Source of the DNA: Salipiger pentaromativorans
GTDB taxonomy: Bacteria; Pseudomonadota; Alphaproteobacteria; Rhodobacterales; Rhodobacteraceae
Assembly: GCF_024721115.1 (NCBI RefSeq)
Contig: NZ_JAMDHK010000005.1
Coordinates: forward strand, 1 to 64,000
Direction of reading: 5' to 3'
Length of the DNA: 64,000 nt
Position 1 is the stretch's first letter. Every line of letters starts with the position of its first letter. Both the position numbers and the translations under genes were made by a program. The notes under the pieces were generated by a model. That model was not told the origin of the DNA. It saw only the letters and a list, made by a program, of their open reading frames with translations, and made no database searches. This document shows positions 345 through 20,896 of this stretch, piece after piece.

Positions 345-381
345 AATGCCGATTGCTGATAAGTCATACCTATCCTGCATA
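345..381. promoter_or_regulatory. Shared 37-bp palindromic element, copy A
   Basis: This is an ungapped match to the elements at 8720 and 20860: 19 of 37 positions are identical in all three, and it matches the 8720 copy at 25 of 37. The outer arm AATGCC faces GCATA, and the centre reads ATAAGTCAT at element positions 15-23. It is probably an operator for a dimeric or tetrameric regulator. The LysR protein at 12603-13532 is the obvious candidate, by inference only. Confidence 0.55.
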
Positions 382-422
382 CGCGGACAACATGGTCTTG
401 CCGGCACCGGCGGGGAGCGGAT

Positions 423-459
423 CATACAGTCTCTGCATGACCCATGGGGAATTGGCATT
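423..459. promoter_or_regulatory. Weaker second copy of the 37-bp element
   Basis: The right arm AATTGGCATT (450-459) is identical to the right arm of the copy at 8720, and the central AT-N5-AT (ATGACCCAT) falls at the same offset. It matches 12 of the 19 positions invariant in the three better copies. The left arm is poor. It lies 78 bp from copy A, about 7.5 helical turns. Confidence 0.35.
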
Positions 460-726
460 TGCCAGGGTTTCGCAGGCCAATAGAGTTGTTACAGACCAAG
501 AGACATGATCGTGTCGGGCCAAGCACGATCAGTTACCGGTCGACGGGCTGGGATGCCGCCAGCCGCGCTGCAGTGCAGTCCAGTTCACGTCCTCGGAAGC
601 GACGCCTCGAAACACCACAGCCGTGCAGCGGCTTGAGGCATGCATGTCCGATGGAAAGAGTGCAATGTGTATGACATCAAAGCAAAATATGGCCCGGTCT
701 GACGACCAACAGGAGGTTGAAACCAA

Positions 727-1857
727 ATGAACTACCCCAAAACGCTGATCGCCGCGGGCTTCGCGTGCCTGGCCCTGGCCGGACCCGGCCGGGCGGAAAC
801 GTTCCGCGCGGCCACCTACATGCCGCCGGGCGAGGCCCTTGCCATCGCCTTCGCCTGGTGGGCGGACGAGATCGGCCCCGCCACCGGCGGCGCGCTGGAC
901 TTCCAGTTTTTCAGCAGCGGCTCGCTCGTCCCGGCGAAATCGGTGCTGCAGTCGGTGGGTGACGGCGTCGCCCATGCCGGGTTCGCCTATTCCGGCTACA
1001 CCCCGTCGGAAACCCCGGTGACCGAAGCCATCGCGGGGTTCTCGTTCTCGGACGCGCCCTATATCGTGCTTGCGGCGGCCTATGCCGATTTCATCATGAA
1101 CGACCCCGAGGGCTACAACGACTGGCGCCGGCACGGGGTCATCCCCTTCGGCGGTTTCGCGACGCCGAAATACGATCTGCTCTGCAACACGGACCCGCTG
1201 CGGTCGCTCGCCGATCTCAAGGGCCGCAAGGTCCGCTTTCCCGGCGGCCCCATGTCGCAGTTCGGCACGGCGCTGGGGATGATCCCGGTCAACATCCCGT
1301 CCTCCGAAGCCTATCAGGCCCAGCAGACCGGCCAGGTCGATTGCTCGTCGATGCGGCCCGGCATGATCATTGCCGTGCCGATGGACGACATCACCAAGAG
1401 CGTCACGCATCTTGCGACCGGGCTCACCTTCGCCTCGCCCTTCATGATCCTGAACGCCGATATGTGGGCGCGGATCACGCCGGAACAGCGGCGGATCTAT
1501 CTCGATACGCTCGCCCGCACGATGGCCAAGGCGCAGGGGGAATACGCCCGGCAGTATGAAACCACCCTGAACGATGCGCCGGAGATGGGCATCGAGGTCG
1601 TGGAGCCCGACGAGGAGGTGAAGGCCGTGATCCGTGAGTGGGTGGCGAATTATCGCCCCGTCGCGCTCGAGACCGCGCGCACGACCCATGGCATCGCCGA
1701 CCCCGAGGCGCTTTTCGAGCGGTTCCAGGGCTATATCGACAAATGGGAACCCATTCTGGCCGGGGTCGAGAACCTGCGCGACGAAGACGCGCTCACGGCG
1801 GTGTTCAAGGAACATCTCACCGACAAGCTGGATGTCGAGGTCTTCGGCATCGAATAG
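727..1857 (+). CDS. TRAP transporter substrate-binding protein (DctP family), orphan
   Basis: This 376-residue periplasmic solute-receptor belongs to the DctP family of TRAP transporters. Residues 1-23 form a signal peptide ending in a GRAE cleavage region. The mature protein shows the family's layout, including the loop around KVRFPGGPMSQF (about 170) and the VDCSSMRPG segment (about 205), where family members hold the ligand. An excellent Shine-Dalgarno, AGGAGGT at 711-717, sits 9 nt before the ATG. No DctQ or DctM membrane subunit is adjacent: the next gene downstream is on the other strand and its convergent operon ends at 1939. It must therefore use membrane subunits encoded elsewhere, or act in sensing. 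Two copies of the locus-specific palindrome lie upstream, so it is probably co-regulated with the amine-catabolism operons that follow. The ligand is unknown. Confidence 0.9.
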   Translation: MNYPKTLIAAGFACLALAGPGRAETFRAATYMPPGEALAIAFAWWADEIGPATGGALDFQFFSSGSLVPAKSVLQSVGDGVAHAGFAYSGYTPSETPVTEAIAGFSFSDAPYIVLAAAYADFIMNDPEGYNDWRRHGVIPFGGFATPKYDLLCNTDPLRSLADLKGRKVRFPGGPMSQFGTALGMIPVNIPSSEAYQAQQTGQVDCSSMRPGMIIAVPMDDITKSVTHLATGLTFASPFMILNADMWARITPEQRRIYLDTLARTMAKAQGEYARQYETTLNDAPEMGIEVVEPDEEVKAVIREWVANYRPVALETARTTHGIADPEALFERFQGYIDKWEPILAGVENLRDEDALTAVFKEHLTDKLDVEVFGIE

Positions 1858-1881
1858 GCCCGTCAGCGGCGTGACAAAAAG

Positions 1882-1910
1882 GAAGGGTGGGCCGGACCGG
1901 CCCACCCTTC
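1882..1910. terminator. Bidirectional terminator between convergent genes
   Basis: A perfect 12-bp stem (GAAGGGTGGGCC at 1882-1893 with its complement at 1899-1910) has a 5-nt loop. Read leftward it is followed by TTTTT, so it best fits termination of the minus-strand operon ending at 1939. It can also stop the plus-strand gene ending at 1857. Confidence 0.8.
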
Positions 1911-1938
1911 TGCGTTTCAGAGGCGCTGTGCGGGCCGG

Positions 1939-3288
1939 TCAGCGTTTGGCCAGCCGGCGGTCCTGCCAGTCGTAATAGCGCATCACCCAGGGCACGAACC
2001 ACGGCGAGCCGGTATAAAGCGGCGTTGTCGGGAAGCGGTGCGACGCGGCGTCGAAGATCGACTCGTGGCCGCCCGTGCCAAGCGCCCGCGCGGCAAGCTT
2101 GCGCCCGAAATGGGTCGACAGCGAAATGCCGGTGAAATTGTACCCCAGCGCGTAGTGGATCCCGTCCCGCGTCCCGATATGCGGCAGGAAGTCGAAGGTC
2201 GCCGCACAATTGCCGTGCCACGCCCGGCTGAGGCGCACGCCCCTGAGGTCCGGGAAGAGCCGTGTGAACTTTGCGTACAGCTCTTGGGCGATCGTCGCCG
2301 CATCCGCGGTCGAGCCGGTTTTGCCGCCCAGCAGGATGCGGCTGGTGTCGGGCGCCGGGCGGGCGAAATCGACGTTCATCGCCGCGTCGCTGTAGGTGCG
2401 CCGGTGCGGCATGACCTTCTCGATCAGCTCGGCGGGCAGTTCCTCGGTCGCGATCATGTAGCCGCGGAAGGGAATGACCCGGCGCGCCATCCAGCCGAAA
2501 TCGCGGGTGGTGTAGCCGTTGGTCGCCATGATCACCTGACCCGCTTCCAGCGGGCCGCGCGAACTGTGGACGATCTTCTTCGCACCCTTGCTCTCGATCC
2601 GGCTGACGGCGGTGAGCGGCGCAAAGCGCACCCCCGCCGCAATGGCCTTTTGCACAAGCGCGTCATGATAGAGGCCGGGATGGATCGCGCCGAGATCGGG
2701 TACGTAGACCCCGCCGCAATAGGCGTCCGAGTTCAGCTCGGCGCGGGCCTGGTCCTTGTTCAGAACCGAATAGGGATAGCCGAGCGCCTGCCGCTTCTGC
2801 TCGTATTCTTCGATCACCGCATCGAGATGGCGCTTCGAGTTGGCCACCGTCACCCGGCCGCAGACCTGCATGTGACAGCGGATCTCCTCGGCCTGGATGA
2901 AGTCGATCAGCGAGGTCAGCGCCTCGTTGTATTCGCCGTAGACCCCGAGCGCATACTCGCGCCCGCCGTCCTTGGTCAGCGTCTCGACCGAGCGGCGGCA
3001 AGTGCGCACGAGAAACCCCGCGCTGCGCCGGGCGGCGCCCTCGCCGATGCGCTGGGAATCGAGCACGGTCACCTGCGTGCCCGCCCGCGCCAGATGCAGC
3101 GCCGCGACGATCCCGGTGATGCCGCCGCCGACCACGGCGACATCCGTGCCACGGCTGAAATCCGGCATCTCGGTCGCGTCCGGGTCGAGCGGCGGTGCCG
3201 CCATCCACCAATAGGGTTCGGCCACGAAATCGTCGGCGAAAATCCCGGAACCGCTCAGCTGCGCTTGCGGCAAGGCACTTGTGGACAT
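1939..3288 (-). CDS. FAD-dependent oxidoreductase, DAO family (PuuB-like)
   Basis: This 449-residue flavoprotein belongs to the D-amino-acid oxidase superfamily, which oxidises C-N bonds of amines or amino acids. The dinucleotide-binding Rossmann motif VVGGGITG begins near residue 53, with an acidic residue (VLD) closing the second strand near 78. The C-terminal FAD contact region reads GYNFTGISLS near 399. The overall pattern, including an N-terminal extension of about 45 residues with YWWMAAPP, resembles gamma-glutamylputrescine oxidoreductase-type proteins found beside polyamine ABC importers. It starts 4 bp after the upstream permease, so it is translationally linked to the ABC importer and is the last gene of that operon. 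It probably acts in the cytoplasm on the imported amine. The exact substrate cannot be assigned. Confidence 0.85.
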   Translation of the reverse strand: MSTSALPQAQLSGSGIFADDFVAEPYWWMAAPPLDPDATEMPDFSRGTDVAVVGGGITGIVAALHLARAGTQVTVLDSQRIGEGAARRSAGFLVRTCRRSVETLTKDGGREYALGVYGEYNEALTSLIDFIQAEEIRCHMQVCGRVTVANSKRHLDAVIEEYEQKRQALGYPYSVLNKDQARAELNSDAYCGGVYVPDLGAIHPGLYHDALVQKAIAAGVRFAPLTAVSRIESKGAKKIVHSSRGPLEAGQVIMATNGYTTRDFGWMARRVIPFRGYMIATEELPAELIEKVMPHRRTYSDAAMNVDFARPAPDTSRILLGGKTGSTADAATIAQELYAKFTRLFPDLRGVRLSRAWHGNCAATFDFLPHIGTRDGIHYALGYNFTGISLSTHFGRKLAARALGTGGHESIFDAASHRFPTTPLYTGSPWFVPWVMRYYDWQDRRLAKR

Positions 3289-3292
3289 GTCT

Positions 3293-4084
3293 TCATTTAC
3301 CCCTGTTGAGCCGGTAGGTGGCCGCCATCAGCACCGAGGTGAAGGCGATGGTGACCACGGCCGCGGCGATGATGGTCGGATTGATGTTCTCCCGCATGCC
3401 CAGATACATGAGCTTGGGGACGGTCTGCTGCTGCGGGCCGGAGATGAAGAGCATCATCACCACCTCGTCGAAGGAGGCGGCAAAGGCGAGGATCGCGCCC
3501 GCCCCCACGCCCGGCGCGATCACCGGCAGCATCACCGTGCGAAAGGCAAAGACGCGCCCCGCCCCGAGGCTCGCCGCCGCGCGCATCAGCGTGAAATCGA
3601 AGCGCGTCAGCGTCGCGGTCACGGTGATGACCACGAAGGGCGAGGCCAGAAGCGTATGCGCGATCACCACGCCGATGAAGGTGTAGTTGAGCGACAGCTG
3701 GCCGAAAAAGATATAGAGCCCCAGCGCCAGCACCACGACCGGCACGATCAGCGGCGCGAGCCCCAGCACCATGACCAGATTGCGGAACGGAAAACGCGGA
3801 TTGGCAAGCCCGATCGCGGCCAGCGTGCCGAGGCCGGTGGCCAGCAGCGTCGTCGCGACCGCGATCAGCACGCTGTTGACGATGGCGCCCGTCCAGCGCG
3901 GCGACAGCAGCGCCTCGAACCAGCGCAGCGAAAATTCGCGGAACGGGTAGACGAACCAGGGGTCCACGTTGAGCGAGATCGGCAGGGCCGCCGCCAGCGG
4001 CAGCACCATCATCGCCAGCGCAAGTGCCACGAAGGCATAAAGGGGCAGCCGGACCCAGAGCGGAAGATCGTGATAATGCCGCAT
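3293..4084 (-). CDS. Polyamine-type ABC transporter permease (PotC-like)
   Basis: This 263-residue inner-membrane protein has about six predicted transmembrane helices, beginning with one at residues 12-35. It carries the binding-protein-dependent permease signature near residues 160-190: the EAA-type loop with RAAASLGAGRVFAFRTVMLP contacts the ATPase. Size and order match PotC-type permeases of spermidine/putrescine importers. It forms the second half of the translocation pore with the product of 4097-5356, which ends 12 bp upstream, and is followed 4 bp later by the flavin oxidoreductase. Confidence 0.88.
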   Translation of the reverse strand: MRHYHDLPLWVRLPLYAFVALALAMMVLPLAAALPISLNVDPWFVYPFREFSLRWFEALLSPRWTGAIVNSVLIAVATTLLATGLGTLAAIGLANPRFPFRNLVMVLGLAPLIVPVVVLALGLYIFFGQLSLNYTFIGVVIAHTLLASPFVVITVTATLTRFDFTLMRAAASLGAGRVFAFRTVMLPVIAPGVGAGAILAFAASFDEVVMMLFISGPQQQTVPKLMYLGMRENINPTIIAAAVVTIAFTSVLMAATYRLNRGK

Positions 4085-4096
4085 GAGACAGCCCTC

Positions 4097-5356
4097 CTAT
4101 GCGTGGCGCCGGACGCGCCGGGCGAGCGGCAGCGTCAGGATCGCGGCCCCGGCGCAGAGCACGACACTCAGCGCGGCGGCGAGCCCCCAGTTCAGATCTT
4201 CACTGGTGAACTGCGCGATGAAACTGCCGACCATCTGGTCGGACGGGCTGCCGACCAGCTCCGGGGTGATGTAGAAGCCCAGGCACATCACGAAGGTCAG
4301 CAGGCTGCCCGCCGCGATGCCCGGCACCGCCTGCGGCAGAAAGATCGTGGCATGCGCCCTGATCGGCCCCGCCCCGAGGCTGCGGGCGCCGCGTAGCTGG
4401 TCGGCGGGGATCGTCCGCATGACGCTGAGCATCGGCAGCACCGTGAAGGAGAGCTGGATCTGCGTCATCGCAAAGATCGTGGCCGGGCGTGTGTAGAGAA
4501 ACGACAGCGGATCGCCCAGCAGGCCCATTCCCGTCAGCAACTGGTTGACCACGCCGTTGGTCTGAAGGACGACGATCAGCGACATCACCCGCACCAGAAG
4601 CGAGGTCCAGAACGGCAGCAGGATCAGGAACAGCAGGATCGCCCCCGTGCGCCCGGCCGAGGTGGCGATGACATAGGCGACCGGGTAGCCGATCAGCACG
4701 GTCAGCACCGTCACCGCGAGGCTGATCAGCACCGTCCGCAGATAGATCGTCGGGAAATCGTAGCCGGGCCCGTCCGAGACGGCCCCGTCGGCATCGAGCA
4801 CCGTCGGCAGCCCGAGCGCCCACCGCAGATAGAAGCTGCTGTAGGGGGTGTCGTAGCGCTGGAGAATGCGCCAGACGCCGGGCTTTCCCCAGGCCGGATC
4901 GGCCCCGACCATCAGCTCCCTGATCGCCTGCGCGTCGCCCGGCAACGCCTCTTCGGGCAGCGCCCGGCTGGCGTTCAGGAGGATCCCAAGCCCGCCTTCC
5001 AGCTCGTATTGCACGCGCCGCCCCAGCCGGCGCAGCGTTCCGGCCTCGTCCGCCGCGCGCAGCTCGCCCGCAAGCGTGCCATACACCGCCGCCGCCGGAA
5101 CACCTGTGCCGTCCCAGGATTGCAGCGCCGCCGTGGTCTCGGGCAGGGTCGCCGCGATCTGCTCGTCCGACACCGAGCTGTGCAGGATCGTCAGAAGCGG
5201 CACCACCAGGAACAGCAGCAGGAACAGCAGCAGCGGTGCCGCGGGCAGCGCGGCTTTCGCCGCTCCGCCCACCGCCTTTTTCCGGATCGCGCCGCTCACG
5301 CGCAGATCGCGGCTCCGCGCAGGGGTGATGTCACGAGACACGTCTCCATAGGACAT
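4097..5356 (-). CDS. Polyamine-type ABC transporter permease (PotB-like) with large periplasmic insertion
   Basis: This is the first permease subunit of the importer. I prefer the ATG at 5356 (419 residues) over the one at 5389, because GAGGGA lies 9 nt before it. The first transmembrane helix is at about residues 38-60, followed by roughly 145 non-membrane residues before the second helix near 206. Typical PotB proteins have only a few dozen residues there. The rest is a standard permease domain with five helices and the EAA loop (RGARSLGAGPIRAHATIFLP, near 335). The inserted segment (about 60-205) would lie in the periplasm near the binding protein. The gene sits between the binding protein (54 bp upstream) and the second permease. 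Confidence 0.85.
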   Translation of the reverse strand: MSYGDVSRDITPARSRDLRVSGAIRKKAVGGAAKAALPAAPLLLFLLLFLVVPLLTILHSSVSDEQIAATLPETTAALQSWDGTGVPAAAVYGTLAGELRAADEAGTLRRLGRRVQYELEGGLGILLNASRALPEEALPGDAQAIRELMVGADPAWGKPGVWRILQRYDTPYSSFYLRWALGLPTVLDADGAVSDGPGYDFPTIYLRTVLISLAVTVLTVLIGYPVAYVIATSAGRTGAILLFLILLPFWTSLLVRVMSLIVVLQTNGVVNQLLTGMGLLGDPLSFLYTRPATIFAMTQIQLSFTVLPMLSVMRTIPADQLRGARSLGAGPIRAHATIFLPQAVPGIAAGSLLTFVMCLGFYITPELVGSPSDQMVGSFIAQFTSEDLNWGLAAALSVVLCAGAAILTLPLARRVRRHA

Positions 5357-5410
5357 GGTGTCAGGTCCCTCGCCTTCGCTTGATGTCACGATCTGCCGTG
5401 TCGTCCGCGC

Positions 5411-6466
5411 TTACTGCGCGACCCAGCTCGAGAAGCGCGCGATCAGGGCGTCGCCCTGCGTCGCCCAGAAACCGCCGTCGAAGACGAGCGAGTCCTCGTC
5501 GATGTGCCCGGCGGGCAGGTTCGGCAGCACATCCGGTTTGACGAACGCGCCCGCCGCCGTCACCGTCGGCCCGTAGGGCTGGTAATCGCTGAACGCGGCA
5601 TTGACCTGCGGCAGCAGCGTGAAGGCGATGAACTTTTTCGCCTCTTCCAGATTCTCGGTGCCTTTCGGAATGCCGAAGAACCCGATCGCGGTCACGTTGT
5701 TCGCCCAGACCATGGTGAGGTCGGCGTTGTCGTTGGAAATCGCCAGCGCCGCGCGCGCGTTATAGGAGGTGGACATCACCACCTGCCCCGACATCAGCAG
5801 CTGCGGTGGCTGCGCCGAGGCTTCCCACCAGATGATGTCGTCCTTGATCGTGTCGAGCTTGGCAAAGGCGCGGTCCACCCCCTCGGGCGTGGAAAGCGTG
5901 GCATAGACATCGTCCACCGCCACTCCGTCGGCGATCAGCGCCAGCTCCAGCGCATCGACGGGGCTTTTGCGCAGCCCGCGCTTGCCCGGATAGGTCTCGG
6001 TGTCGAAAATGTCGGTGACCGCCGTCGGGCCTTCGGGGAAGATGCCGTTTTTATAGGCGAGGATCGTGGCATAGGTCATCGAGCCGATGCCGCATTCCGT
6101 GAGCCCGCCCTTGATGAGACCCGCCTCGGTGAACAGCGGATCGTCGCCGACCTTTTCGAACAGGCCCTGTTCGCAGCCGATCTCGATGGGTTCGGCGGTG
6201 GCGTCCATCACGTCCCAGACGATGTTGCCGCTTTCGACCATGGCGCGGACCTTGGCAAGATCGCCGCTCCAGGTGTCCATGACCGCCGAAATGCCGGTTT
6301 CCTCGGTGAAGGGGCCAAGCCAGACCTTCTCGAAGGTCTCGTTGGTGACCCCGCCATAGGAGACGACCGTCAGATCCCGCGACAGCGCGGGCTGCGCGCA
6401 GGCCAGCGCCGCAAGGCAGGAGACCCCGAAAAGTTTTCCGCTATCAAAAAGTCTTGTCCATGACAT
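5411..6466 (-). CDS. Polyamine-type ABC substrate-binding protein (PotD-like)
   Basis: This 351-residue extracellular solute-binding protein (SBP_bac_8/PotD type) has a Sec signal peptide at residues 1-29 (ALACAQPALS before RDLTVVSYGG). The mature N terminus has the family-typical strand and glycine turn VVSYGG, and the hinge region VWDVMDAT is near residue 83. The pattern is that of the spermidine/putrescine and related small-cation binding proteins, though the exact ligand is open. It is encoded 30 bp downstream of the ATPase and 54 bp upstream of the first permease, so the order is ATPase, binding protein, permease, permease, oxidoreductase. Confidence 0.88.
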   Translation of the reverse strand: MSWTRLFDSGKLFGVSCLAALACAQPALSRDLTVVSYGGVTNETFEKVWLGPFTEETGISAVMDTWSGDLAKVRAMVESGNIVWDVMDATAEPIEIGCEQGLFEKVGDDPLFTEAGLIKGGLTECGIGSMTYATILAYKNGIFPEGPTAVTDIFDTETYPGKRGLRKSPVDALELALIADGVAVDDVYATLSTPEGVDRAFAKLDTIKDDIIWWEASAQPPQLLMSGQVVMSTSYNARAALAISNDNADLTMVWANNVTAIGFFGIPKGTENLEEAKKFIAFTLLPQVNAAFSDYQPYGPTVTAAGAFVKPDVLPNLPAGHIDEDSLVFDGGFWATQGDALIARFSSWVAQ

Positions 6467-6496
6467 GTGCGTTTCTTTCCCTGTTGCTTTGGTTTT

Positions 6497-7660
6497 TTAT
6501 TGTCCGTCGAGCGCCCAGGCGCTTGTCGGGTCCCAGTAGAGATGCACCGGCGCGCCGATTTCGGTCGGGACATCCGTCGCGGAGGTCGGCCGTTTGACCA
6601 CGACCTCGTCGCCCCCCGGAAGGGTGGCGTAGATACGGAGCTGATCGCCCGTATAGACGACATTGCTGACGGTGCCGCTGAGCGCACCGGGGCGCGCCTC
6701 TTTCAGCGGTACGATCAGTTCCGGCCGGATCGAGATCGTCGCGGGCGCCCCGGCACGGGTATGCGATGTGGTGCGCGCCACGACCTCCGCCCCGCCGCGC
6801 AGCCGCGCCTGTGCAAGATCGCCCTCGACCGAGGTGACCGTGGCATCGAGCCCGTTGTTATCCCCGACGAACCCGGCGACAAAGCGGTTCACCGGGCGGC
6901 TGTAGATCTCTTCGGCGGGCCCGATCTGCTGGATATAGCCGTTGTTGAAGACCGCGATCCGGTCGGACATGGTCAGCGCTTCTTCCTGGTCGTGGGTGAC
7001 ATAGATCACCGTCAGACCGAAGCGCTCGGCAATCGAGCGGATCTCGAGCTGAAGCTCCTCGCGCAGCCGCTTGTCGAGCGCGCCCAGCGGTTCGTCCATC
7101 AGCACCAGATCGGGTTCGAAGACCAGCGCGCGGGCCAGCGCCACACGCTGCTGCTGCCCGCCCGACAGCGCCGTGGGATAGCGTTGCGCGAAATCCGAAA
7201 GCCGCATCGCCTCGAGCGTCCCGGCAACCCGGCGCGCGGTCTCGTCCTTCGCGGTGCCCCGGACGCGCAGGGAATAGCCGACATTCTCGGCCACCGTCAT
7301 GTGCGGGAACAGGGCGTAGCTCTGAAACACGACGCCGAAATTCCGCTTCTCCGGCGGAATATTGTGCACCGGGCGCCCGTCGAGCAGGATCGCGCCGTCG
7401 GTCGGATGCTCGAACCCCGCGAGCATCATCAGCGTCGTGGTCTTGCCCGAGCCGGACGGCCCCAGCAGGGTCAGGAATTCGCCCTTGTAGACCTCGAGAT
7501 CGAGATCCCGGACGACATAATGCTGGCCGTCATAGGTCTTCAGAACGCCGCTCAGGCTGACGTGAACCTCTTTCGGCGCGCCGATCATGCCTGCCGCCCG
7601 GCCGTCAGGTACGGGAACCGGGCGGGAGTACCCGGAAATGTCTCGTGTAGTGCCATCCAT
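6497..7660 (-). CDS. Polyamine-type ABC transporter ATPase (PotA-like)
   Basis: This 387-residue ATP-binding subunit powers the importer encoded downstream. The Walker A motif GPSGSGKT is near residue 68, the signature LSGGQQQR near 165, Walker B VLMDEP near 185, and the switch histidine lies in YVTHDQEEA near 219. Residues beyond about 260 form the TOBE-type regulatory domain usual for PotA/FbpC proteins. The ATG at 7660 is supported by AAGGTG 5 nt upstream. The roughly 25 residues before the ABC domain are longer than in typical homologues, and a second ATG at 7588 is possible. It is the second gene of the operon, 79 bp after the DUF1989 gene. Confidence 0.92.
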   Translation of the reverse strand: MDGTTRDISGYSRPVPVPDGRAAGMIGAPKEVHVSLSGVLKTYDGQHYVVRDLDLEVYKGEFLTLLGPSGSGKTTTLMMLAGFEHPTDGAILLDGRPVHNIPPEKRNFGVVFQSYALFPHMTVAENVGYSLRVRGTAKDETARRVAGTLEAMRLSDFAQRYPTALSGGQQQRVALARALVFEPDLVLMDEPLGALDKRLREELQLEIRSIAERFGLTVIYVTHDQEEALTMSDRIAVFNNGYIQQIGPAEEIYSRPVNRFVAGFVGDNNGLDATVTSVEGDLAQARLRGGAEVVARTTSHTRAGAPATISIRPELIVPLKEARPGALSGTVSNVVYTGDQLRIYATLPGGDEVVVKRPTSATDVPTEIGAPVHLYWDPTSAWALDGQ

Positions 7661-7739
7661 ATTTCACCTTCTGGCCCGGAAACCACGCGCTGCGCGGTTC
7701 CGGAGCGTCTTCGATTGATCGGCCCACAAGGACGATGAC

Positions 7740-11201: not shown

Positions 11202-11240
11202 CCCGCCCTGCCCCACTCGTTCAAGGACACCGAATCCGCC

Positions 11241-12101: not shown

Positions 12102-12111
12102 GGAGACAGCC

Positions 12112-12597: not shown

Positions 12598-12602
12598 CGC
12601 GC

Positions 12603-13532
12603 TCAGCCGCGCGCCGCGGCCCCGGTTTCGTCGTGGTCCGGCAGACCCGCCCAGAACTGTTCGAAGGACGAGATGCCGATGCTCCGGCGCCGCAGCGCCA
12701 GAACCTTCAGATCCACGTCTTTCGAATTGAATGACAGAATGCGCAGCTGGCCGCTTTCGACCTCGTGCCGGATGACGCTCATCGGCAGCCAGCCGACGCC
12801 CCGTCCCGCCAGGATCATCCGCTTGATGCCTTCGGTGAAGGTGCTTTCATAGGCGGTCACCAGCGTCATCCCCTGCTCGGCCATGCCCGCCATCAGACGG
12901 GTCTGAAGCTTGGCCAGAAAGCATTCGGGAGAATAGGAGATCAGCGGCACCTCGGCCTTGCCCTGCCAGGTCCGTCCGGTCGTCAGCTCGGTATAGCTGT
13001 CGGGCGCGCAGACGAAGCAGAGCTTTTCCAGCTCGATGGTCTTGCAGACGATCTGCCCGTTCTGCGGCACCGGCGGGCCGAAGGCATGGGAATAGCAAAA
13101 GGCGACATCGCAGCGCCCGGACACAAGCGTCTCGATGCAGCCGTGAAAATCCGTCTCGTGCATCCTTGTGCGCAGCTCGGTCTTTGCCTTGGTCGGCGTG
13201 GCAAGAATGTCGGGCAGAATGTTCAGGGCGATGGTGTGAAACGCGCTGATGGACAGCGTATATTCGTCATTGCCGGACTGCTGCCGGCAATCGTCGCGCA
13301 CGCGGTACATGTCGCGGATAAGATCGCGCCCGACCTCGAGAAAGGTCTCTCCGGCGGCGGTCAGCTTGATGGGGTATTCGTTGCGGTCGACCAGTTCCGT
13401 ACCGACCCAGTTTTCCAGCGCCTGAATACGGCGGCTGAACGCGGGCTGGGTGACGTGACGCGCCGCCGCCGCCATCGAGAAGTTGCGCGTGGCCGCCAGC
13501 TCAACGAAATCCTCAAGCCATTTCAATTCCAT
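12603..13532 (-). CDS. LysR-family transcriptional regulator of the amine locus
   Basis: This 309-residue LysR-type regulator starts at the ATG at 13532, giving the canonical N terminus MELKWLEDFVELA. An upstream in-frame start at 13592 would add 20 unlikely residues. The winged helix-turn-helix (residues 1-60) contains RNFSMAAAARHVTQPAFSRR, and the C-terminal effector-binding domain runs from about 90 to 295. It is the only regulator gene inside the accessory locus, lying between the hydroxylase operon and the aldehyde dehydrogenase operon. It is therefore the best candidate to bind the shared palindromes at 345, 8720 and 20860, which is inference. A terminator-like hairpin at 13609-13634 separates it from the upstream aldehyde dehydrogenase operon, suggesting its own promoter. 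Confidence 0.9.
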   Translation of the reverse strand: MELKWLEDFVELAATRNFSMAAAARHVTQPAFSRRIQALENWVGTELVDRNEYPIKLTAAGETFLEVGRDLIRDMYRVRDDCRQQSGNDEYTLSISAFHTIALNILPDILATPTKAKTELRTRMHETDFHGCIETLVSGRCDVAFCYSHAFGPPVPQNGQIVCKTIELEKLCFVCAPDSYTELTTGRTWQGKAEVPLISYSPECFLAKLQTRLMAGMAEQGMTLVTAYESTFTEGIKRMILAGRGVGWLPMSVIRHEVESGQLRILSFNSKDVDLKVLALRRRSIGISSFEQFWAGLPDHDETGAAARG

Positions 13533-13608
13533 CCGGTCACATGTCTCCAAGATCGCGCAAGCCGCCCCCGATGCTACTGCACGGAAAATCAACTTGCCAC
13601 CAAAGACG

Positions 13609-13634
13609 GACCGGCCCTGTCAAACGGGCCGGTC
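13609..13634 (-). terminator. Terminator-like hairpin after the aldehyde dehydrogenase operon
   Basis: GACCGGCCC at 13609-13617 pairs perfectly with 13626-13634 around an 8-nt loop. It lies 42 bp past the end of the aldehyde dehydrogenase gene and about 77 bp before the LysR start. The trailing sequence is only weakly T-rich, so termination may be partial. Confidence 0.55.
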
Positions 13635-13675
13635 GCGCGCTGCGAACTGCCTGCATCGCAGGCCCGGCTCCGGGA

Positions 13676-15151
13676 TCAGAGATTGTTGATGTAGACGCTC
13701 TTCTCGTAGAGGAAGGCCTCGATGTGATCGCGCCCGCCCTTCATGCCGTAACCGCTTTGCTTGTAACCGCTGAAGCCCACCGCCGGATCCGCAAGCCCGT
13801 AGGCGTTGACCCAGAGCTTCCCGGCCTTCATGCCGTGGATCATCCGGGTCGCGGTGCCGAGGCTGCTTGTCCAGACCGCACCGGCAAGCCCGTAGCTCGT
13901 GTCATTGGCCAGACGCAGCGCCTCCTCCTCGGTATCGAAGGGGATCACCGAGGCGACCGGCCCGAAGATCTCTTCGCGCGCGATGGTCATATCATTGGTC
14001 ACGCCGCCGAAAATCGTGGGCTCCATGAAATAGCCCTGCGCCAGCGCGCCTCCGACGCGATGGCCGCCTGCGCTCAGCCTCGCGCCTTCCTGATGGCCGC
14101 TCTCGACATAGCCCATGACGCGTTCGAGCTGCCGTTCCGAGACCAGCGGCCCGAGCTGGGTTTCCGAATCGAAGGGATCGCCGACGCGGATGGTCTTGGT
14201 ATAGGCGGCCATGGCCTCCAGGAACGCCTCCTGAATCCCGCGCTGGACGAACACCCGCGTGCCCGCGGAGCAGATCTGGCCGGAGTTTGTAAACACCCCC
14301 ATCGCGGCGCCCGGCACCGCGCGGTCGAGATCGGCATCCGCAAAGACGATGTCGGGCGACTTGCCGCCCAGCTCGACCTGAATGCGCTTCATGTTTCCGG
14401 CCGAGGCCCGGATGATCTCGCGCCCGGTCTGGGTGGAGCCGGTAAAGGCGATGCGGTCCACATCCATATGCGCGGCGAGCGCGGCCCCCGCCTCGGTGCC
14501 GTAGCCGGTCACGACGTTGATCACCCCTTCGGGCACCCCGGCCTCCATCAGCAGCTCGGCGGTGCGCAGCGTGGTGAGCGAGGCATCCTCCGCCGGTTTG
14601 ATCACCGCCGTGCAGCCGGTCGCCAGAGCGCCCCCCATGATCCACCACATGCTCAGCAGCGGCGCGTTCCAGGGGATGATCCCGCCGACCACCCCCACCG
14701 GCGCCTTGAGCGTCAGCGTGGTGAAGCTGCCCTTGAGCGAGTTCGGAATGGTCGTGCCGGTCCAGTTGACCGCCTGGCTGCCGAAATACTGGACCAGCTG
14801 GACCAGGCTGCCCTTCATGCCCAGCACGCGGGCATGCGGCGCCCCCATGTCCATCGACTCGAGCATGGCAAGCTCGTCGTAATTGCTCTCGAGCACCTCG
14901 GCCGCGCGCATCAGCAGCATCATGCGCTGATTGGGCGTGAACCGGCTCCATGGCCCCTCGAACGCCCGGCGCGCCGACGCCACGGCGCGGTCGATGTCCT
15001 CCGGGCCTCCGCGCGCCAGCGTCGCCAGAACCGTGCCCGTCGCGGGGTTCCAGGTGTCGAGCGTCTCTCCCGACACGGACGGATGCCAGGCACCGCCGAT
15101 AAAGTGCTGCTTCGCGGGATTGCCCAAAGCCGCGGGAACAGGAGCAGTCAT
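13676..15151 (-). CDS. NAD(P)-dependent aldehyde dehydrogenase
   Basis: This member of the aldehyde dehydrogenase superfamily oxidises aldehydes to acids. I prefer the ATG at 15151 (491 residues), which has AAGGA 8 nt upstream, over 15184. Motifs visible in the 491-residue form are PWNAP near 156, ELGGKSPDIV with the general-base glutamate near 257, and NSGQICSAG with the catalytic cysteine near 291. The C terminus ends in the oligomerisation strand typical of betaine/aminobutyraldehyde-type enzymes. It is the last gene of the leftward operon that starts with a class III aminotransferase. It could therefore oxidise the aldehyde formed by transamination or by the flavin amine oxidoreductase, as in polyamine routes, though the substrate is not proven. 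Confidence 0.92.
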   Translation of the reverse strand: MTAPVPAALGNPAKQHFIGGAWHPSVSGETLDTWNPATGTVLATLARGGPEDIDRAVASARRAFEGPWSRFTPNQRMMLLMRAAEVLESNYDELAMLESMDMGAPHARVLGMKGSLVQLVQYFGSQAVNWTGTTIPNSLKGSFTTLTLKAPVGVVGGIIPWNAPLLSMWWIMGGALATGCTAVIKPAEDASLTTLRTAELLMEAGVPEGVINVVTGYGTEAGAALAAHMDVDRIAFTGSTQTGREIIRASAGNMKRIQVELGGKSPDIVFADADLDRAVPGAAMGVFTNSGQICSAGTRVFVQRGIQEAFLEAMAAYTKTIRVGDPFDSETQLGPLVSERQLERVMGYVESGHQEGARLSAGGHRVGGALAQGYFMEPTIFGGVTNDMTIAREEIFGPVASVIPFDTEEEALRLANDTSYGLAGAVWTSSLGTATRMIHGMKAGKLWVNAYGLADPAVGFSGYKQSGYGMKGGRDHIEAFLYEKSVYINNL

Positions 15152-15232
15152 GAGTTCGGTCCTTTTTCTCAGATGAAACCGCATTCGGTGCCAAGGGCGC
15201 AGACTGTCATCGCTCTGCCTGCCCGTGGTGTC

Positions 15233-16312
15233 TCAGCCGTCCGGCAGCAGCAGCGCGTCGTCCGGGTCCCAGAAGACACGGCATCGGTCGCCGATCTGCC
15301 AGGCGGTGGATCCCGAGCGGTTCAGCACCTTCACGCTCAGACGTTCGGAGCCGATGCCGACCGACAGCATCGAGCTGTCCCCGACATAGGTCAGATCCTC
15401 GATCCGGCCGTCGAGCCGGCCCGGACCACCCGCCCCCTCCGGCGGCTCGATACGGATGTTCTCGGGCCGGACGAAGACGACCGGATCGCCCGCCGTATCG
15501 GCCCCGGCGGCAACCGGCACGGGCTGACCCTGCGCATTGCGGAAGCCGCCGTCTGCCCGTGTCACGCGGATGAAGTTGGACTCGCCCATGAAGCTCGCGA
15601 CGAAACGGTCCGTCGGGTGCCGGTAGATCTCCTCCGGCGCGGCAAGCTGATGCACCCGGCCCGCCGACATCACGGCGATGCGGTCGGACATCGCAAGCGC
15701 CTCGTCCTGATCGTGGGTGACGTAGATCATCGTCTTGCCCATCCGGCGGTGCAGGAAACGGATCTCTTCCTGAAGGTGCTGCCGCAGCTTCTTGTCCAGC
15801 GCCCCCAGCGGCTCGTCGAGCAGCAGGACGGGCGGATCGAAAACCAGCGCGCGCGCAATCGCCACCCGCTGCTGCTGCCCGCCGGAGAGCTGCGAGGGAT
15901 AGCGGTCGGCGAAGGGCGCAAGCTGGACCAGATCCAGCATCCGGGCGACACGCTCGGCGATCGCCGACCGCCCGGCCCGGCGCATGCGCAACGGGTAGGC
16001 GACGTTTTCGGCGACGGTCATATGCGGGAAGAGCGCGTAGTTCTGAAAGATGATCCCCAGCTCGCGCCGGTGCGCGGGCAGGCGGGTGATGTCCTTGCCG
16101 TCGAGCGTGATCGCCCCCCGGTCGGGGATCTCGAAGCCCGCGACCATCATCAGCGTGGTCGTCTTGCCCGAACCGCTGGGCCCGAGGAAAGAGATGAACT
16201 CGCCCGGCGCGATGTCCATCGACACGTCATCGACGGCAACGAAGGTGCCATAGTGGCGGCTCACGCCCTTCAGCGAAACCTGCCCCAGCAGGGCGGGGGT
16301 GTCTGTCGTCAT
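15233..16312 (-). CDS. Second polyamine-type ABC transporter ATPase (PotA-like)
   Basis: This 359-residue ATPase starts at the ATG at 16312, preceded by AAGGAG. The frame also contains a TTG 27 bp further upstream. Walker A GPSGSGKT lies near residue 44, the signature LSGGQQQR near 140, Walker B VLLLDEP near 160 and YVTHDQDEA near 194. The TOBE-type C-terminal domain begins about residue 240. It energises the fused permease encoded 61 bp upstream and the binding protein before it. It is a paralogue of the ATPase at 6497-7660, so the locus holds two separate importers of the same class. Confidence 0.92.
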   Translation of the reverse strand: MTTDTPALLGQVSLKGVSRHYGTFVAVDDVSMDIAPGEFISFLGPSGSGKTTTLMMVAGFEIPDRGAITLDGKDITRLPAHRRELGIIFQNYALFPHMTVAENVAYPLRMRRAGRSAIAERVARMLDLVQLAPFADRYPSQLSGGQQQRVAIARALVFDPPVLLLDEPLGALDKKLRQHLQEEIRFLHRRMGKTMIYVTHDQDEALAMSDRIAVMSAGRVHQLAAPEEIYRHPTDRFVASFMGESNFIRVTRADGGFRNAQGQPVPVAAGADTAGDPVVFVRPENIRIEPPEGAGGPGRLDGRIEDLTYVGDSSMLSVGIGSERLSVKVLNRSGSTAWQIGDRCRVFWDPDDALLLPDG

Positions 16313-16373
16313 GGAAGGCAAACTCCTTGGCCGCGGCAAACGGCCGGTCTTGCGGAAACGCGCGGGCCGTCCG

Positions 16374-18119
16374 TCATTTTGCCCTCGGCGTCATCAGGCT
16401 GCCCAGCGTGATCGCCAGCGCCGCGAGCAGCATCTGCAGGGTGGCCACGGCGGAGATCGTCGGGCTCACGTCCTGCTTGATCCCCTCCCACATGCGCATG
16501 GGCAGGGTGTTGAGCTTTCCGGCACCGAGAAACAGCGCATAGACCACATCGTCGAAGGAATTGAGAAAGGCGAAGAACCCCGCGACGATGAGGGTCGGGC
16601 GGATCAGCGGGAAGGTGATCGTCCGGAACGCCGCCACCGGATTTGCCCCGAGGCTGAGCCCGGCCTTCTCCAGCGACGGGTTCAGCGATTGCAGGCTGGT
16701 CAGCACGATGACCACGACGAACGGCATGGCATAGACCGCATGGGCGATGGCCAGACCGATCTCGGTGCCCTGCAACCCGAACTGGACGAAGAGGAAATAG
16801 ATCGCCACGGCCACCACCACGGTGGGCATGATGATCGGCGTCAGCAAAAGGATCAAAAGCCCGTTCCGGCCCGGAAGGTTCCCGCGCATCAGCCCGAGCG
16901 ACAGCAGCGTCCCGAGGATCGTTGCGATCAGCCCCGCCAGCACCGCGACCCGCAGGCTGACAAAGGTCGCCCGCAGCCAGGTCGGGTCGGAAAGATAGGC
17001 CTGATAGTTGTGCAGCGAAAAGCCCGGTGCGGGAAACACGAGGTATTTCGCGGAACTGAACGACAGATAGGTGATGACGGCGCCGGGGGCGAGCAGCATC
17101 AGCCCGACGACAAAGGCGAAGACCGGCAGCAGCCGCGCCCCGAACGCCGGACCCGTATCCCCCAGCCGGTTCACCGCGGCGGCGAGGCCGGTGAGCCAGA
17201 GGCTCGACACATGGTGCCCCTCGCCCGAGGCCGTGGAGAGCCCGCGTTTCAGCCCCAGCAGCCGGTCGAGCGGAAAGAACCGCGAGCCGATCCAGAGCAG
17301 CGCGACGACCGAGGCCAGCAGCACCACCGACAGCGCCGAACCGAAGGCCCAGTTGAGCTGATCGACCACCTGGCTGCTGATCGCCATGGTGATCATCGTG
17401 TCCGACAGCCCGCCCATCAGCGCGGGCGTGATGTAGAACCCCAGGCAGTAGATAAAGACCAGCATGACCCCGGCCACGACGCCGGGCACGCTGAGCGGAA
17501 AGAACACCGAGACAAAAGCCCCGGCGGGGCTTGCGCCACAGGCACGGGCCGCGCGCACCAGCCGCCCGTCGATCCCGGACATGACGGTGTAGAGCGGCAG
17601 GATGATCATCGGCAGCACGATATGGACCATGCCCACGATCACCCCGAAGCGGTTATAGAGCATCTGGATCGGCATGCTGGTCAGCCCGAGGCCAAGCATG
17701 ATCTCGTTCAGCACCCCGCCGCGCCCCAGCAGCACGAGCCAGGCGAAGGTGCGGACCAGCACGCTGGTGAAATAGGGCAGCACGACGCAGATCAGCAGGA
17801 AGGTCCGCAAGGCCTTGCCCGAGGTGGTCAGCACATAGGCGAACGGATAGCCGATGACGACGGCCAGCGCGGTCACCGTCACGCTGATCGCCAGCGTGGT
17901 CTTCATGATCGACAGATAGGCCGTGGTGTCCAGCAGCCGTGCGTAGTGGAACACCGTCCAGTCCGGCATCCCCAGACTGACGAGGACCATTCCGCCCAGC
18001 GGCACGAGGAACAGCACCACCACGAATGCGATGCCGGGCAGGGCAAGCCAGGCCCAGCCGGTCATTTCGGAGCCGCTTTTTCCCGAAAAGCGGCTCCGCT
18101 CCGTTGTCTTGCTCATCAT
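16374..18119 (-). CDS. Polyamine/iron-type ABC permease with two fused permease domains
   Basis: This roughly 581-residue inner-membrane protein starts at the ATG at 18119 (an adjacent ATG and an upstream GTG at 18131 are alternatives). Two permease domains are fused in one chain: helices at about residues 20-300 with a first EAA loop near 170-200 (RAARACGASPAGAFVSVFFP), then a second set at 325-575 with its loop near 495-520 (KAGLSLGANPVAAFRTITFP). One polypeptide therefore provides the whole pore, whereas the importer at 3293-5356 uses two separate proteins. The binding protein gene ends 22 bp upstream and the ATPase gene follows 61 bp downstream. Confidence 0.88.
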   Translation of the reverse strand: MMSKTTERSRFSGKSGSEMTGWAWLALPGIAFVVVLFLVPLGGMVLVSLGMPDWTVFHYARLLDTTAYLSIMKTTLAISVTVTALAVVIGYPFAYVLTTSGKALRTFLLICVVLPYFTSVLVRTFAWLVLLGRGGVLNEIMLGLGLTSMPIQMLYNRFGVIVGMVHIVLPMIILPLYTVMSGIDGRLVRAARACGASPAGAFVSVFFPLSVPGVVAGVMLVFIYCLGFYITPALMGGLSDTMITMAISSQVVDQLNWAFGSALSVVLLASVVALLWIGSRFFPLDRLLGLKRGLSTASGEGHHVSSLWLTGLAAAVNRLGDTGPAFGARLLPVFAFVVGLMLLAPGAVITYLSFSSAKYLVFPAPGFSLHNYQAYLSDPTWLRATFVSLRVAVLAGLIATILGTLLSLGLMRGNLPGRNGLLILLLTPIIMPTVVVAVAIYFLFVQFGLQGTEIGLAIAHAVYAMPFVVVIVLTSLQSLNPSLEKAGLSLGANPVAAFRTITFPLIRPTLIVAGFFAFLNSFDDVVYALFLGAGKLNTLPMRMWEGIKQDVSPTISAVATLQMLLAALAITLGSLMTPRAK

Positions 18120-18141
18120 GCGATGCGCCACGGCCCGAACA

Positions 18142-19278
18142 TCAGGCGCTGCGCCATTCGAGCCAGCGCTCCTGCAGGTAGTCGGCGTTGGTCTTGCCGT
18201 CGGCCCGCATCGACGCCATCCAGGCGGAATCCTCGATCACCAGATCCGAGGCGTTTTCCGGGCTGATCCCGAGCATCGCGCTCAGCTCGGCGGGCAGATA
18301 CTCCAGCTGGTTCCGGTTCGAGCTGGCAAAGCCGGTGCCCTGCGTCCAGGCCGCCGCAACCTTTGCACGGTTGATATAGGCCAGGAGCTTTTGCGCATTG
18401 GTGGTGTTGGGGCCGCCTTCGAGAATGGTCATGTAGTTGTGGTGGATATGCGCGCCCTTCCAGCTCAGACCCAGCGGCGCGCCGTTGTTGATCGCCGCGA
18501 TTGCCCGCCCGTCGGGGCAGCTGCTCATGACGTATTCGCGGTTGGCGATCAGCTGCGGCCCCTCGCCTCCGGCGGCCCACCAGCGGCTGACATGCGGGCG
18601 GATCTCGTCCAGCTTGGCATAGGCGCGCGCCAGCTTGTCATCGGTCAGCGGATAGATGTCGCTGCTGGCCATACCGTCGGCCTGAAGCGCGGCCTCGATG
18701 TTCTGCTTGCTCTCCTGGGCGTAGAGCCCCCTCGGGCCGGGGAATTTCTCGACATCCCAGAAATCCGCCCAGGTCTGCGGAACCTCGCCGGAAAACACGC
18801 GCGTGTCATAGGCAAAGAGCGTCGCGGGCGAGAAGGCGACAACCGCATCCTTCGGGCGCCGGTCCTCGGGAACGCCCTGCAGCGCCTCGGCATCCCAGAG
18901 CCCGTAGTCGATGTCGGCGAACATGCCTTCGGCGGACATCTGCGGGTAGAGCATGGCGCGGATCAGCGCCGTGTCCCATTCCACCTTGCCGGACTGGAAC
19001 ATGGCCTGAACCTGCGATTCCGCCAGATCCGCCGTCACGTCGACCACCTCGATGCCGGTGGCCTCGGTGAAGGGGTTGAACACATGGTTGCGCAGCCCCT
19101 CGGTCATCGAGCCGCCATAGGTGAAGACCACAACCTCGCCGCTGCCGGCCAGCGGCTCGGCCTGGGCAAGCGCCGGGCCTGCCCTGGAGACGAGCGGCGC
19201 GGCAAGCGCCGCCGCCCCCAGCTTGAGCAGCCGCCGGCGGCTGGGCCGCGGGTTCATAAGATCCTGTCTGTCAGTCAT
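18142..19278 (-). CDS. ABC substrate-binding protein (PotD-like) with twin-arginine-type signal
   Basis: This 378-residue extracellular solute-binding protein has an N terminus carrying SRRRLLKLGAAAL, a twin-arginine-type signal, followed by an Ala-rich segment and cleavage near residue 40 (ALAQA). That suggests export in folded form. The mature protein begins with the family strand VVVFTYGGSM near 48. It is the second gene of the leftward operon, 43 bp after the aminotransferase. It is only distantly similar to the other binding protein of the locus (5411-6466), which has a Sec-type signal, so the two importers may recognise different but related compounds. Confidence 0.88.
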   Translation of the reverse strand: MTDRQDLMNPRPSRRRLLKLGAAALAAPLVSRAGPALAQAEPLAGSGEVVVFTYGGSMTEGLRNHVFNPFTEATGIEVVDVTADLAESQVQAMFQSGKVEWDTALIRAMLYPQMSAEGMFADIDYGLWDAEALQGVPEDRRPKDAVVAFSPATLFAYDTRVFSGEVPQTWADFWDVEKFPGPRGLYAQESKQNIEAALQADGMASSDIYPLTDDKLARAYAKLDEIRPHVSRWWAAGGEGPQLIANREYVMSSCPDGRAIAAINNGAPLGLSWKGAHIHHNYMTILEGGPNTTNAQKLLAYINRAKVAAAWTQGTGFASSNRNQLEYLPAELSAMLGISPENASDLVIEDSAWMASMRADGKTNADYLQERWLEWRSA

Positions 19279-19321
19279 TGCGTTCCCCTGTTGTTATGAG
19301 GTCGTCGTCCCGGTTCGGGAT

Positions 19322-20701
19322 CTATATGGACCGTGCCTCGTCCCAGGCCGCCGCGATGCCGCGGTGGAACCGTTCCGCCGCCTGCTCCGCATCCGCCATC
19401 GACATGTTCAGTGCCGGGGCAAAGACGAGCCGGTTGCTGTTGAGACGAACGGCGACCCCGTGCTCTTTGCAGTGTTTGCCGATCAGCCCCATGATGTTGA
19501 CAGAAGGATCGAACGGCTTGCGCGTCTCCTGATCCGCCATGAGCTCCATGCTGACCATCGCACCCATCTTGCGGACATCGGCCAGCATCGGGTGACTGTT
19601 GTCGCCGGTCACATGAGAGTGGAAGAAATCGCCAAGCGCGCTGCCATGCGCGATCAGCCCTTCTTCCTCGATGATCGTCAGCGTCTCGAGCGCAACTGCG
19701 GTGCAGACCGGGTTGCCGCCGAAGGTCGAGCCCTGCGAGTAATTGCCGAGCCGGTCGCTCATGGTCAGAACCGCGTCGAAGATGCGCGGCCCGACGATGG
19801 CGGCGCCGATCGGCACCAGACCCGAGCCCAGCCCCTTGGCCGAGGTGATGATGTCGGGTTGCAGATCGAACGATTGCGTGGCCCACCAGTTGCCAGTCCG
19901 CCCGACGCCGGTGATCACCTCGTCGGCCACGAAGAGGATGTCGTATTTGCGCAGCACCGCCTGGATCTTGGCGAAATAGCCCTCGGGCGGCATCAGACCG
20001 CCGCCCGCGCCCATGATGGGTTCGGCGAACATGGCTGCGATGGTCTCCGGCCCTTCGCGCAGGATCAGCTCCTCGAGCGCGGCGGCCATGCGGTCGGAGA
20101 ACTGCTCCTCGGTCTCGCCCGCCTCGTGGTTGCGGTAGTAATGCGGCATTTCGGTCAGCAGGAAGCGGTCGCTCATCGGCAGGCCGAAGCCCACCTGATA
20201 GTCCGAGCGCCCCGACAGGCTCGACATGGCGGTCGACTGGCCGTGGAACCCGCCCTTGCGGCCGATGACCTTTGTCCGCTCGGGCCGTCCGACCGCGTGC
20301 TGGTAATACCAGCAGAGCTTGAGCGCGGCCTCGTTCGCCTCGGTGCCGGAGTTCTGGAAGATCACCCGCGACATGAACGAAGGCGCGGTTTCCATGATCT
20401 TGTCGGCCAGCCGGATGGCGGGCTCGTGGGAATGGTGCTTGTAGAGATGATAATATCCAAGCGCGCTCATCTGATCGTAGGCGACCTTTGCCAGCCTCTC
20501 GCTCTTGAAGCCGAGTGGGCAGCACCACATCCCCGAAATACAGTCGATAAAGTCTCTTCCCGCTTCGTCGAAAATGCGCGTGCCTTCGGCTCCGGAGATG
20601 ATGATCGGGCCTTTTTCAAGATGCACCCTGGCATTGGTTTGCGGATGCAACATGCTGGCGACATCCATATCCACCAGAGAATTCGATATTTTATAGTCCA
20701 A
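19322..20701 (-). CDS. Class III (omega) aminotransferase
   Basis: This PLP-dependent class III aminotransferase transfers amino groups from omega-amino compounds or amines. No ATG gives a good start. I favour the TTG at 20701 (459 residues), because GGAG lies 7 nt before it and the resulting SNSLVDMDVASMLHP segment aligns with the usual N terminus of the family. An ATG at 20668 is the alternative, and an ATG at 20776 would add an unlikely extension. The PLP-binding block is seen in LFVADEVITGVGRTG (near 250) and ITSAKGLGSGLVPIG with the Schiff-base lysine (near 286). It heads the operon with the second importer and the aldehyde dehydrogenase. Copy C of the 37-bp palindrome lies 159 bp upstream. 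Confidence 0.9.
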   Translation of the reverse strand: MDYKISNSLVDMDVASMLHPQTNARVHLEKGPIIISGAEGTRIFDEAGRDFIDCISGMWCCPLGFKSERLAKVAYDQMSALGYYHLYKHHSHEPAIRLADKIMETAPSFMSRVIFQNSGTEANEAALKLCWYYQHAVGRPERTKVIGRKGGFHGQSTAMSSLSGRSDYQVGFGLPMSDRFLLTEMPHYYRNHEAGETEEQFSDRMAAALEELILREGPETIAAMFAEPIMGAGGGLMPPEGYFAKIQAVLRKYDILFVADEVITGVGRTGNWWATQSFDLQPDIITSAKGLGSGLVPIGAAIVGPRIFDAVLTMSDRLGNYSQGSTFGGNPVCTAVALETLTIIEEEGLIAHGSALGDFFHSHVTGDNSHPMLADVRKMGAMVSMELMADQETRKPFDPSVNIMGLIGKHCKEHGVAVRLNSNRLVFAPALNMSMADAEQAAERFHRGIAAAWDEARSI

Positions 20702-20757
20702 GACGTATCTCCATATTGCACCGGAAGGCCGCGCCAAGCCTTCGCTTGCCCGCCAAA

Positions 20758-20782
20758 ATGCAAATGCCACACGCATTTACAT
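20758..20782. promoter_or_regulatory. 25-bp near-perfect palindrome upstream of the aminotransferase
   Basis: Arms ATGCAAATGC (20758-20767) and GCATTTACAT (20773-20782) are complementary at 9 of 10 positions around a 5-nt spacer. The AAATGC half-site is the same as the outer arm of the 37-bp element at 20860, but the spacing is different. It lies between that element and the start codon, as a repressor or second activator site would. Confidence 0.4.
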
Positions 20783-20859
20783 GCCAGGAAAATCCAGAAG
20801 TCGGCCCGCTGTAGAACGCTGCCTGCCGCTACATTGGGGAACTCGGGCACGGCGAAGCA

Positions 20860-20896
20860 AATGCTGTTTTCTGATGGCTCATGCGAGTTCGGCATT
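20860..20896. promoter_or_regulatory. Shared 37-bp palindromic element, copy C
   Basis: This is an ungapped match to the elements at 8720 (26 of 37) and 345. It starts AATGC, has the invariant CTGAT at element positions 12-16, the centre ATGGCTCAT and the end GGCATT. The preceding AGCA is also shared with the copy at 345. It lies 159 bp upstream of the favoured start of the aminotransferase operon. Confidence 0.6.

Follow-up and report, generated by a model that had tools for sequence, protein, structure and literature searches.

Among the systems closest to the one reported here are two studied ones that depend on LysR-type transcriptional regulators (LTTRs). BenM and CatM of Acinetobacter bind T-N11-A boxes (ATAC-N7-GTAT) at sites 1, 2 and 3, where one good dyad and further degenerate ones are held by a tetramer (PMC6628147). 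HypT (YjiE) of Escherichia coli senses hypochlorite by means of three methionines (PMC3792123, PMC8063818). We analysed bases 1 to 64,000 (the window) of contig C35 in the 5.28-Mb genome of Salipiger pentaromativorans, where an amine-catabolism locus contains four copies of a 37-bp site and the gene of a HypT-like LTTR. With a probability of about 0.83, we believe that the four sites are the operators of this regulator, which would activate the units of the locus together. Like the Acinetobacter boxes, those of the window are 15-bp T-N11-A dyads, and ATAC arms also occur within them. They differ in that the arms are mainly ATGC and GCAT, each site has two boxes centred 20 bp apart, and the pathway is another one. 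The sites and the proposed regulator are as follows.

345 to 381, plus strand: site A, with boxes at 346-360 (ATGC-N7-TGAT) and 366-380 (ATAC-N7-GCAT), upstream of an orphan DctP gene.
423 to 459, plus strand: site D, the fourth copy, with boxes at 424-438 (ATAC-N7-GCAT) and 444-458 (ATGG-N7-GCAT).
8720 to 8756, plus strand: site B, with boxes at 8721-8735 (ATAC-N7-TGAT) and 8741-8755 (exact ATGC-N7-GCAT), between divergent operons.
20860 to 20896, plus strand: site C, with boxes at 20861-20875 (ATGC-N7-TGAT) and 20881-20895 (exact ATGC-N7-GCAT).
12603 to 13532, minus strand: LysR-type regulator, HypT-like, the proposed binder of the four sites.

A first-pass annotation of this DNA had described one 37-bp quasi-palindrome at three places, 345, 8720 and 20860. 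Its gapless alignment was reproduced, with 19 of 37 positions identical in all three copies, pairwise identities of 25, 24 and 26 of 37, and 18, 26 and 22 self-complementary positions. The three places stand, and a fourth was added when the window was scanned with each copy on both strands: site D matches copy A at 24 of 37 positions on the opposite strand and starts 42 bases past its end, so that two sites precede the same orphan gene. The matrix score of site D was 38.5 compared with 21.2 for the best of 20 simple window shuffles, a value flattered by the fact that site D is itself one of the four copies underlying the matrix. The 37-bp copies are real; each is better read as two adjacent 15-bp dyads than as one palindrome. 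Every copy consists of a box ATGC (ATAC or ATGG)-N7-GCAT (or TGAT), five bases, and a second such box; as a rule one of the two fits ATGC-N7-GCAT well and the other is more degenerate. Exact ATGC-N7-GCAT occurs in the window at 8741 and 20881 only, and boxes with one mismatch are found at 366, 424 and 444. The box centres are 20 bp apart, and the best partner, scored on the left side only at offsets from 16 to 32, lay at 20 bp in all four sites. The boxes carry T-N11-A within a short dyad, and a second, weaker box lies about two helical turns away, both being marks of LTTR operators. Judged by its sequence, the two-box form is the usual paired operator of an LTTR.

We infer binding by the LysR protein, activation and an inducer in the following manner. 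A regulator tetramer would place one dimer on the good box and the other on the degenerate box, and a bound pathway metabolite would make it shift its grip and activate transcription. Transport (the importers and the orphan binding protein) and catabolism (the hydroxylase and the operon that encodes the aminotransferase and aldehyde dehydrogenase) would be activated together. It is plausible that the sites would control every catabolic and transport unit of the locus, as had been suggested in the first-pass annotation.

The sites were confined to this locus. The pattern AATRC-N7-BSAT-N5-ATRS-N7-GCATT, derived from the copies after inspecting them, was searched in the 5.28-Mb genome at up to two mismatches and gave the four copies, two of which were hit on each strand, plus a single weak match on contig C3, with two mismatches. 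The reversed pattern, used as a control, gave zero matches in the same genome. At up to one mismatch in 20 genus genomes the pattern matched the four window copies only and was absent from the other 19. The many unrelated occurrences in the genome that the first-pass annotation had named as a refuting result were thus not found. LysR matches at E ≤ 1e-30 were present in three of these 19 genomes (29-34% identical). Across 248 family genomes, LysR matches at E ≤ 1e-40 were 31-37% identical, the own genome excepted, and the DUF1989 protein of the locus had no further match at E ≤ 1e-50. The site, the regulator and the locus co-occur here and were found neither jointly nor singly in the other genus genomes. 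Since LysR and DUF1989 searches of the family and genus genomes found no orthologous locus, strict footprinting of the amine locus is impossible, and a comparison of homologous regulators was used instead.

For this comparison we used loci of HypT-like regulators: the best 80 of 452 contig relatives (33-40% identical, mostly Burkholderiales), 18 further loci (16 from the family search and 2 from the genus search), and six plasmid loci hand-chosen from 20 listed of 1,860 records. The paired-site model comprised 15 positions and a linker of 5 or 6 bases, with a threshold of at least 13. Scores at or above this threshold were found in the flanks of 71 of the 80, 15 of the 18 and four of the six loci, versus two of 30 control LTTR loci. 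Outside the flanks the corresponding counts were 0/80, 1/18, 0/6 and 0/30. Another 26 loci were newly fetched (30 listed less four already examined); nine of them scored at least 13 in the flanks and one elsewhere, compared with 0 or 1 of 26 for shuffled flanks in 20 repeats, and several resemble the Burkholderiales type by their first residues, so that this set is not fully independent. The five nearest tree relatives of the window regulator (L141, L105, L086, L104 and L087) scored 13 to 15, all with 20-bp spacing. The LysR protein is a very probable binder because several distant relatives carry the same site beside their own genes. The unstudied HypT-like loci of Nitratireductor OM-1, Ensifer, Leisingera and Burkholderiales share the paired box with the window; it stands beside their regulator gene, and the neighbours are importers and amino-acid genes. 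These loci differ from the window in their regulators, which are 33-41% identical, and in their target operons; in Burkholderiales and Leisingera the spacing is 21 bp. L048, from an Azoarcus metagenome-assembled genome (MAG), has an exact box twice at 942-995 relative to the LysR start; the two are identical, lie 39 bp apart and may be a duplicated operator.

Dyads made up of a tetramer and its reverse complement with 3 to 16 bases between them, 3,584 in all, were counted in 250-bp flanks versus the rest of each locus, and ATGC-N7-GCAT came first in all five HypT-like sets, which overlap. Flank and background loci numbered 5 and 0 among five sister loci, 7 and 3 among the 18, 11 and 1 among the 26, 24 and 4 among a combined 58 (the 18, the 26, all six plasmid loci and eight from the 80), and 44 and 0 among the 80. 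In the 30 control loci the same dyad ranked fourth (8 and 2), mainly through one LTTR group. Loci within the sets are related, and p values for the dyads therefore overstate the case.

The spacing of the two boxes was similarly constrained. A partner was defined as a box with at least 5 of 8 arm positions at offsets from 16 to 32, and one box may count at two offsets. For 28 exact boxes from the family, plasmid and newly fetched loci, the partner lay at 20 bp in 8 cases and at 21 bp in 15, and any other offset was seen at most 5 times. In the 80-locus set all 45 boxes had a partner at 21 bp, the next offsets reaching 12. The 20-bp spacing is common to the five sister loci and the window sites. 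A polarity was also apparent: the degenerate box points toward the likely target in Nitratireductor OM-1 (LysR start taken as 14001, 150 bases past the annotated start), Ensifer and Leisingera, where the likely targets are divergent importer operons. The same orientation was seen in Burkholderia 8Y (target the downstream open reading frame (ORF), by eye a glutamate dehydrogenase), in E. coli, and at window site C. This polarity fits the usual LTTR layout, in which a good box serves for recognition and a weak one, close to the promoter, for activation.

The LysR protein obtained its top score against the HypT model (NCBIfam NF007488 equivalog), and it was the sole HypT-like match of its own genome at E ≤ 1e-30. 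In a FastTree phylogeny of 46 proteins, comprising the window protein, E. coli HypT, 31 hand-picked of 130 HypT-like loci and 13 of the 30 controls, it fell within the HypT-like group together with HypT and apart from other LTTRs; the tree is midpoint-rooted and printed without support values. It differs from HypT in that its score of 125 bits is below the model's cut-off of 301, and in that Met123, Met206 and Met230 of HypT correspond to Pro, Leu and Phe. As the three sensing methionines are replaced, the window protein is more likely to be a metabolite sensor than a hypochlorite sensor. A second LysR-type helix-turn-helix (HTH) match of the window was observed at 41506-41679, outside the amine locus.

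A number of observations weigh against the HypT-like regulator as the reader of these sites, or narrow what the comparison can carry. Many of the first loci were inspected before the paired-site model was fixed. The 71 scoring contig loci are betaproteobacterial by title (Burkholderiales plus L048, L056 and L060), and as they are largely one ortholog group they come close to one observation. Scores below 13 were found at 9 of the 80, 3 of the 18, 2 of the six and 17 of the 26 HypT-like loci. The nine are five Bosea or Bosea-type Hyphomicrobiales, Aestuariispira, Azospirillum, Marinobacterium (score 12) and a Hyphomicrobiales MAG; all but Marinobacterium are alphaproteobacterial. In the Bosea-type loci L011, L007, L020, L015 and L006, matrix matches within the LysR coding sequence were set aside as coding likenesses. 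In the LETKW group, the neighbour of E. coli HypT in the tree, none of the seven loci has the box beside the regulator: six are boxless within 8 kb, and in the remaining one a box lies within an ORF at a distance of about 7 kb. No common replacement dyad was seen in this group. L099, L103, L159 and several METKW loci also lack the site, and by eye some METKW loci contain degenerate versions of it. A consensus promoter scan at sites B and C found none. A distant box, upstream of the gene that opens a run ending with the regulator, was considered as the cause of the misses and fails for most loci. For this, 17 loci were re-read with as much as 8 kb to either side, namely 15 without an exact flank box and two with one (L192 and L194). 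Twelve of the 15 had no exact box, L185 and L198 each had one within an ORF roughly 7 kb off, and L199 had a paired site scoring 14 at 105 bp upstream of another operon, which explains one of the 15 misses. Either specificity shifted within the HypT-like clade, or the site-less proteins act elsewhere.

A single box does not identify its binder. An exact box upstream of the gene was found in 6/18 HypT-like and 1/30 control loci (p = 0.008), and when either side was counted the figures were 8/18 and 8/30 (p = 0.17), which also speaks against our interpretation. The same is true of the WDKLRIF-group controls, six of eight of which (L116, L117, L118, L124, L127 and L128) have an exact box immediately behind the stop codon of the LTTR gene; a member of this group with 89% identity is also encoded in the own genome, at C22:295645-296541. 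With 50 LTTR-type HTH matches in the genome, 49 of them above the cut-off, another regulator, such as the WDKLRIF-group LTTR on C22 or the LTTR near 41506, might read the sites. We regard this as unlikely: L127 alone among the eight WDKLRIF-group control loci reaches 13/15 for the paired site, the 37-bp pattern is restricted to the amine locus, and in the nearest HypT-like relatives the boxes of the paired site are spaced as in the window. The box pair identifies the binder better than the single box does. Intergenic quasi-palindromes are common in bacterial repeats, and the 37-mers might accordingly be non-regulatory remnants of a mobile element or dispersed repeat. This explanation is very improbable and was rejected as far as copy counts allow, no further copy being present in the genome or in the 19 other genus genomes at up to one mismatch; homologous regulators, moreover, show the same arrangement. 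That just 19 of 37 positions agree among the first three copies would suit a chance likeness of intergenic sequence, to which we assign practically no weight. The reversed-pattern count of zero in 5.28 Mb and the shuffled flanks of the relatives (0 or 1 of 26 versus 9 observed) rule it out. The regulator at 12603-13532, already the candidate of the first-pass annotation, is well supported as the binder by comparison, the paired site standing beside many homologous regulators and not beside all.

In E. coli K-12, the 13 kb around hypT contain one exact ATGC-N7-GCAT, 116 bp upstream of yjiH (L110 7777-7811), and yjiH, yjiG, iadA and hypT follow it in the same direction. An ATGC arm is found 20 bp further toward yjiH and the inner arm of the second box is lost, so that the pair reaches 12/15 by hand count, below the threshold. 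The E. coli run resembles the window operon preceded by the 20860 site, both having the regulator last and a site before the first gene, and in both a hairpin directly precedes the regulator (at 13609-13634 in the window; in E. coli an 11-bp inverted repeat recognised by eye). The box before yjiH is a candidate HypT operator. Against this, the published HypT gel shifts employed hypT promoter DNA (PMC3792123), and the 64 bp directly upstream of E. coli hypT contain no box even at two mismatches. The paired ATGC-N7-GCAT could be an old signature of the whole HypT-like clade across Alpha-, Beta- and Gammaproteobacteria. The original function would then be the sensing of amino-acid or amine metabolites, HypT of E. 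coli would still recognise the copy before yjiHG-iadA, and hypochlorite sensing would be a later gain. We consider this scenario possible rather than probable, our estimate having been lowered because the site is missing in 9 of 12 non-Burkholderiales contig loci and in the group next to HypT.

The remaining features of the locus are the following.

459 to 486, plus strand: promoter-like TTGCCA-16-TAGAGT, a consensus match only, starting where site D ends and directed at the DctP gene.
727 to 1857, plus strand: orphan DctP-type binding protein (Pfam DctP).
1939 to 8411, minus strand: predicted operon left of site B, with a DUF1989 protein, an importer ATPase, a binding protein, two permeases and a flavin adenine dinucleotide (FAD) oxidoreductase.
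8886 to 12597, plus strand: operon of a xanthine dehydrogenase-type molybdenum hydroxylase, with large, FAD and small iron-sulfur subunits, the last assigned by reading.
13609 to 13634, minus strand: hairpin that separates the aldehyde dehydrogenase gene from LysR, with 9 pairs (8 of them G-C) and a weak T tract.
13676 to 20776, minus strand: predicted operon left of site C, with a class III aminotransferase, a PotD-like binding protein, a fused permease, an ATPase and an aldehyde dehydrogenase.

The genes left of site B, by their order and strand, and those left of site C probably each form one operon. The start codons of the DUF1989 protein (ORF opening at 8651) and of the class III aminotransferase are uncertain. 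LysR is a possible member of the 20860 operon, with the hairpin and its weak T tract lying before it; the stretch between aldehyde dehydrogenase and LysR has 7 terminator-like sites compared with a shuffle mean of 4.1. At site D there was one promoter-like match versus a shuffle mean of 0.2. Homologues of the xanthine dehydrogenase large subunit occur in 79 of the 248 family genomes with the own genome counted (48-55% identical, E ≤ 1e-180), and their spread is uninformative about the amine locus. Elsewhere in the genome, at G000:C12:41004-43220, a second large subunit of this type was noted, which shares 52% identity with that at 8886. The closest plasmid relative of the DUF1989 protein (51%) lies in L179 (9225-14925), on a Rhodococcus qingshengii plasmid from carbendazim-contaminated soil. 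It lies with an FAD oxidoreductase, an aldehyde dehydrogenase and a class III aminotransferase, an enzyme set similar to that of the window, here under an IclR-type neighbour. A tRNA-Arg (acg) gene is present at 21905-21981, some 1 kb to the right of site C, and window position 1 is the contig end. Together with the missing LysR and DUF1989 genes in relatives, these features suggest that the amine locus could be an acquired island.

The paired architecture of LTTR operators is already known; this particular operator appears to be new. The first-pass annotation knew of no description of the site, and neither the operator nor its tie to HypT-like regulators was found in the literature searched, which consisted of open papers, with most subscription journals outside. 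No paper with the motif spelled out was found, and other spellings or figures could have escaped the search. Part of an unstudied regulator group would gain a searchable DNA address, from which targets may be predicted by sequence, and one exact candidate HypT site is named in E. coli, before yjiH. For the organism itself, an unusual amine set comprising a molybdenum hydroxylase, a DUF1989 protein, two importers and an aminotransferase becomes one predicted regulon, which may aid in finding its substrate.

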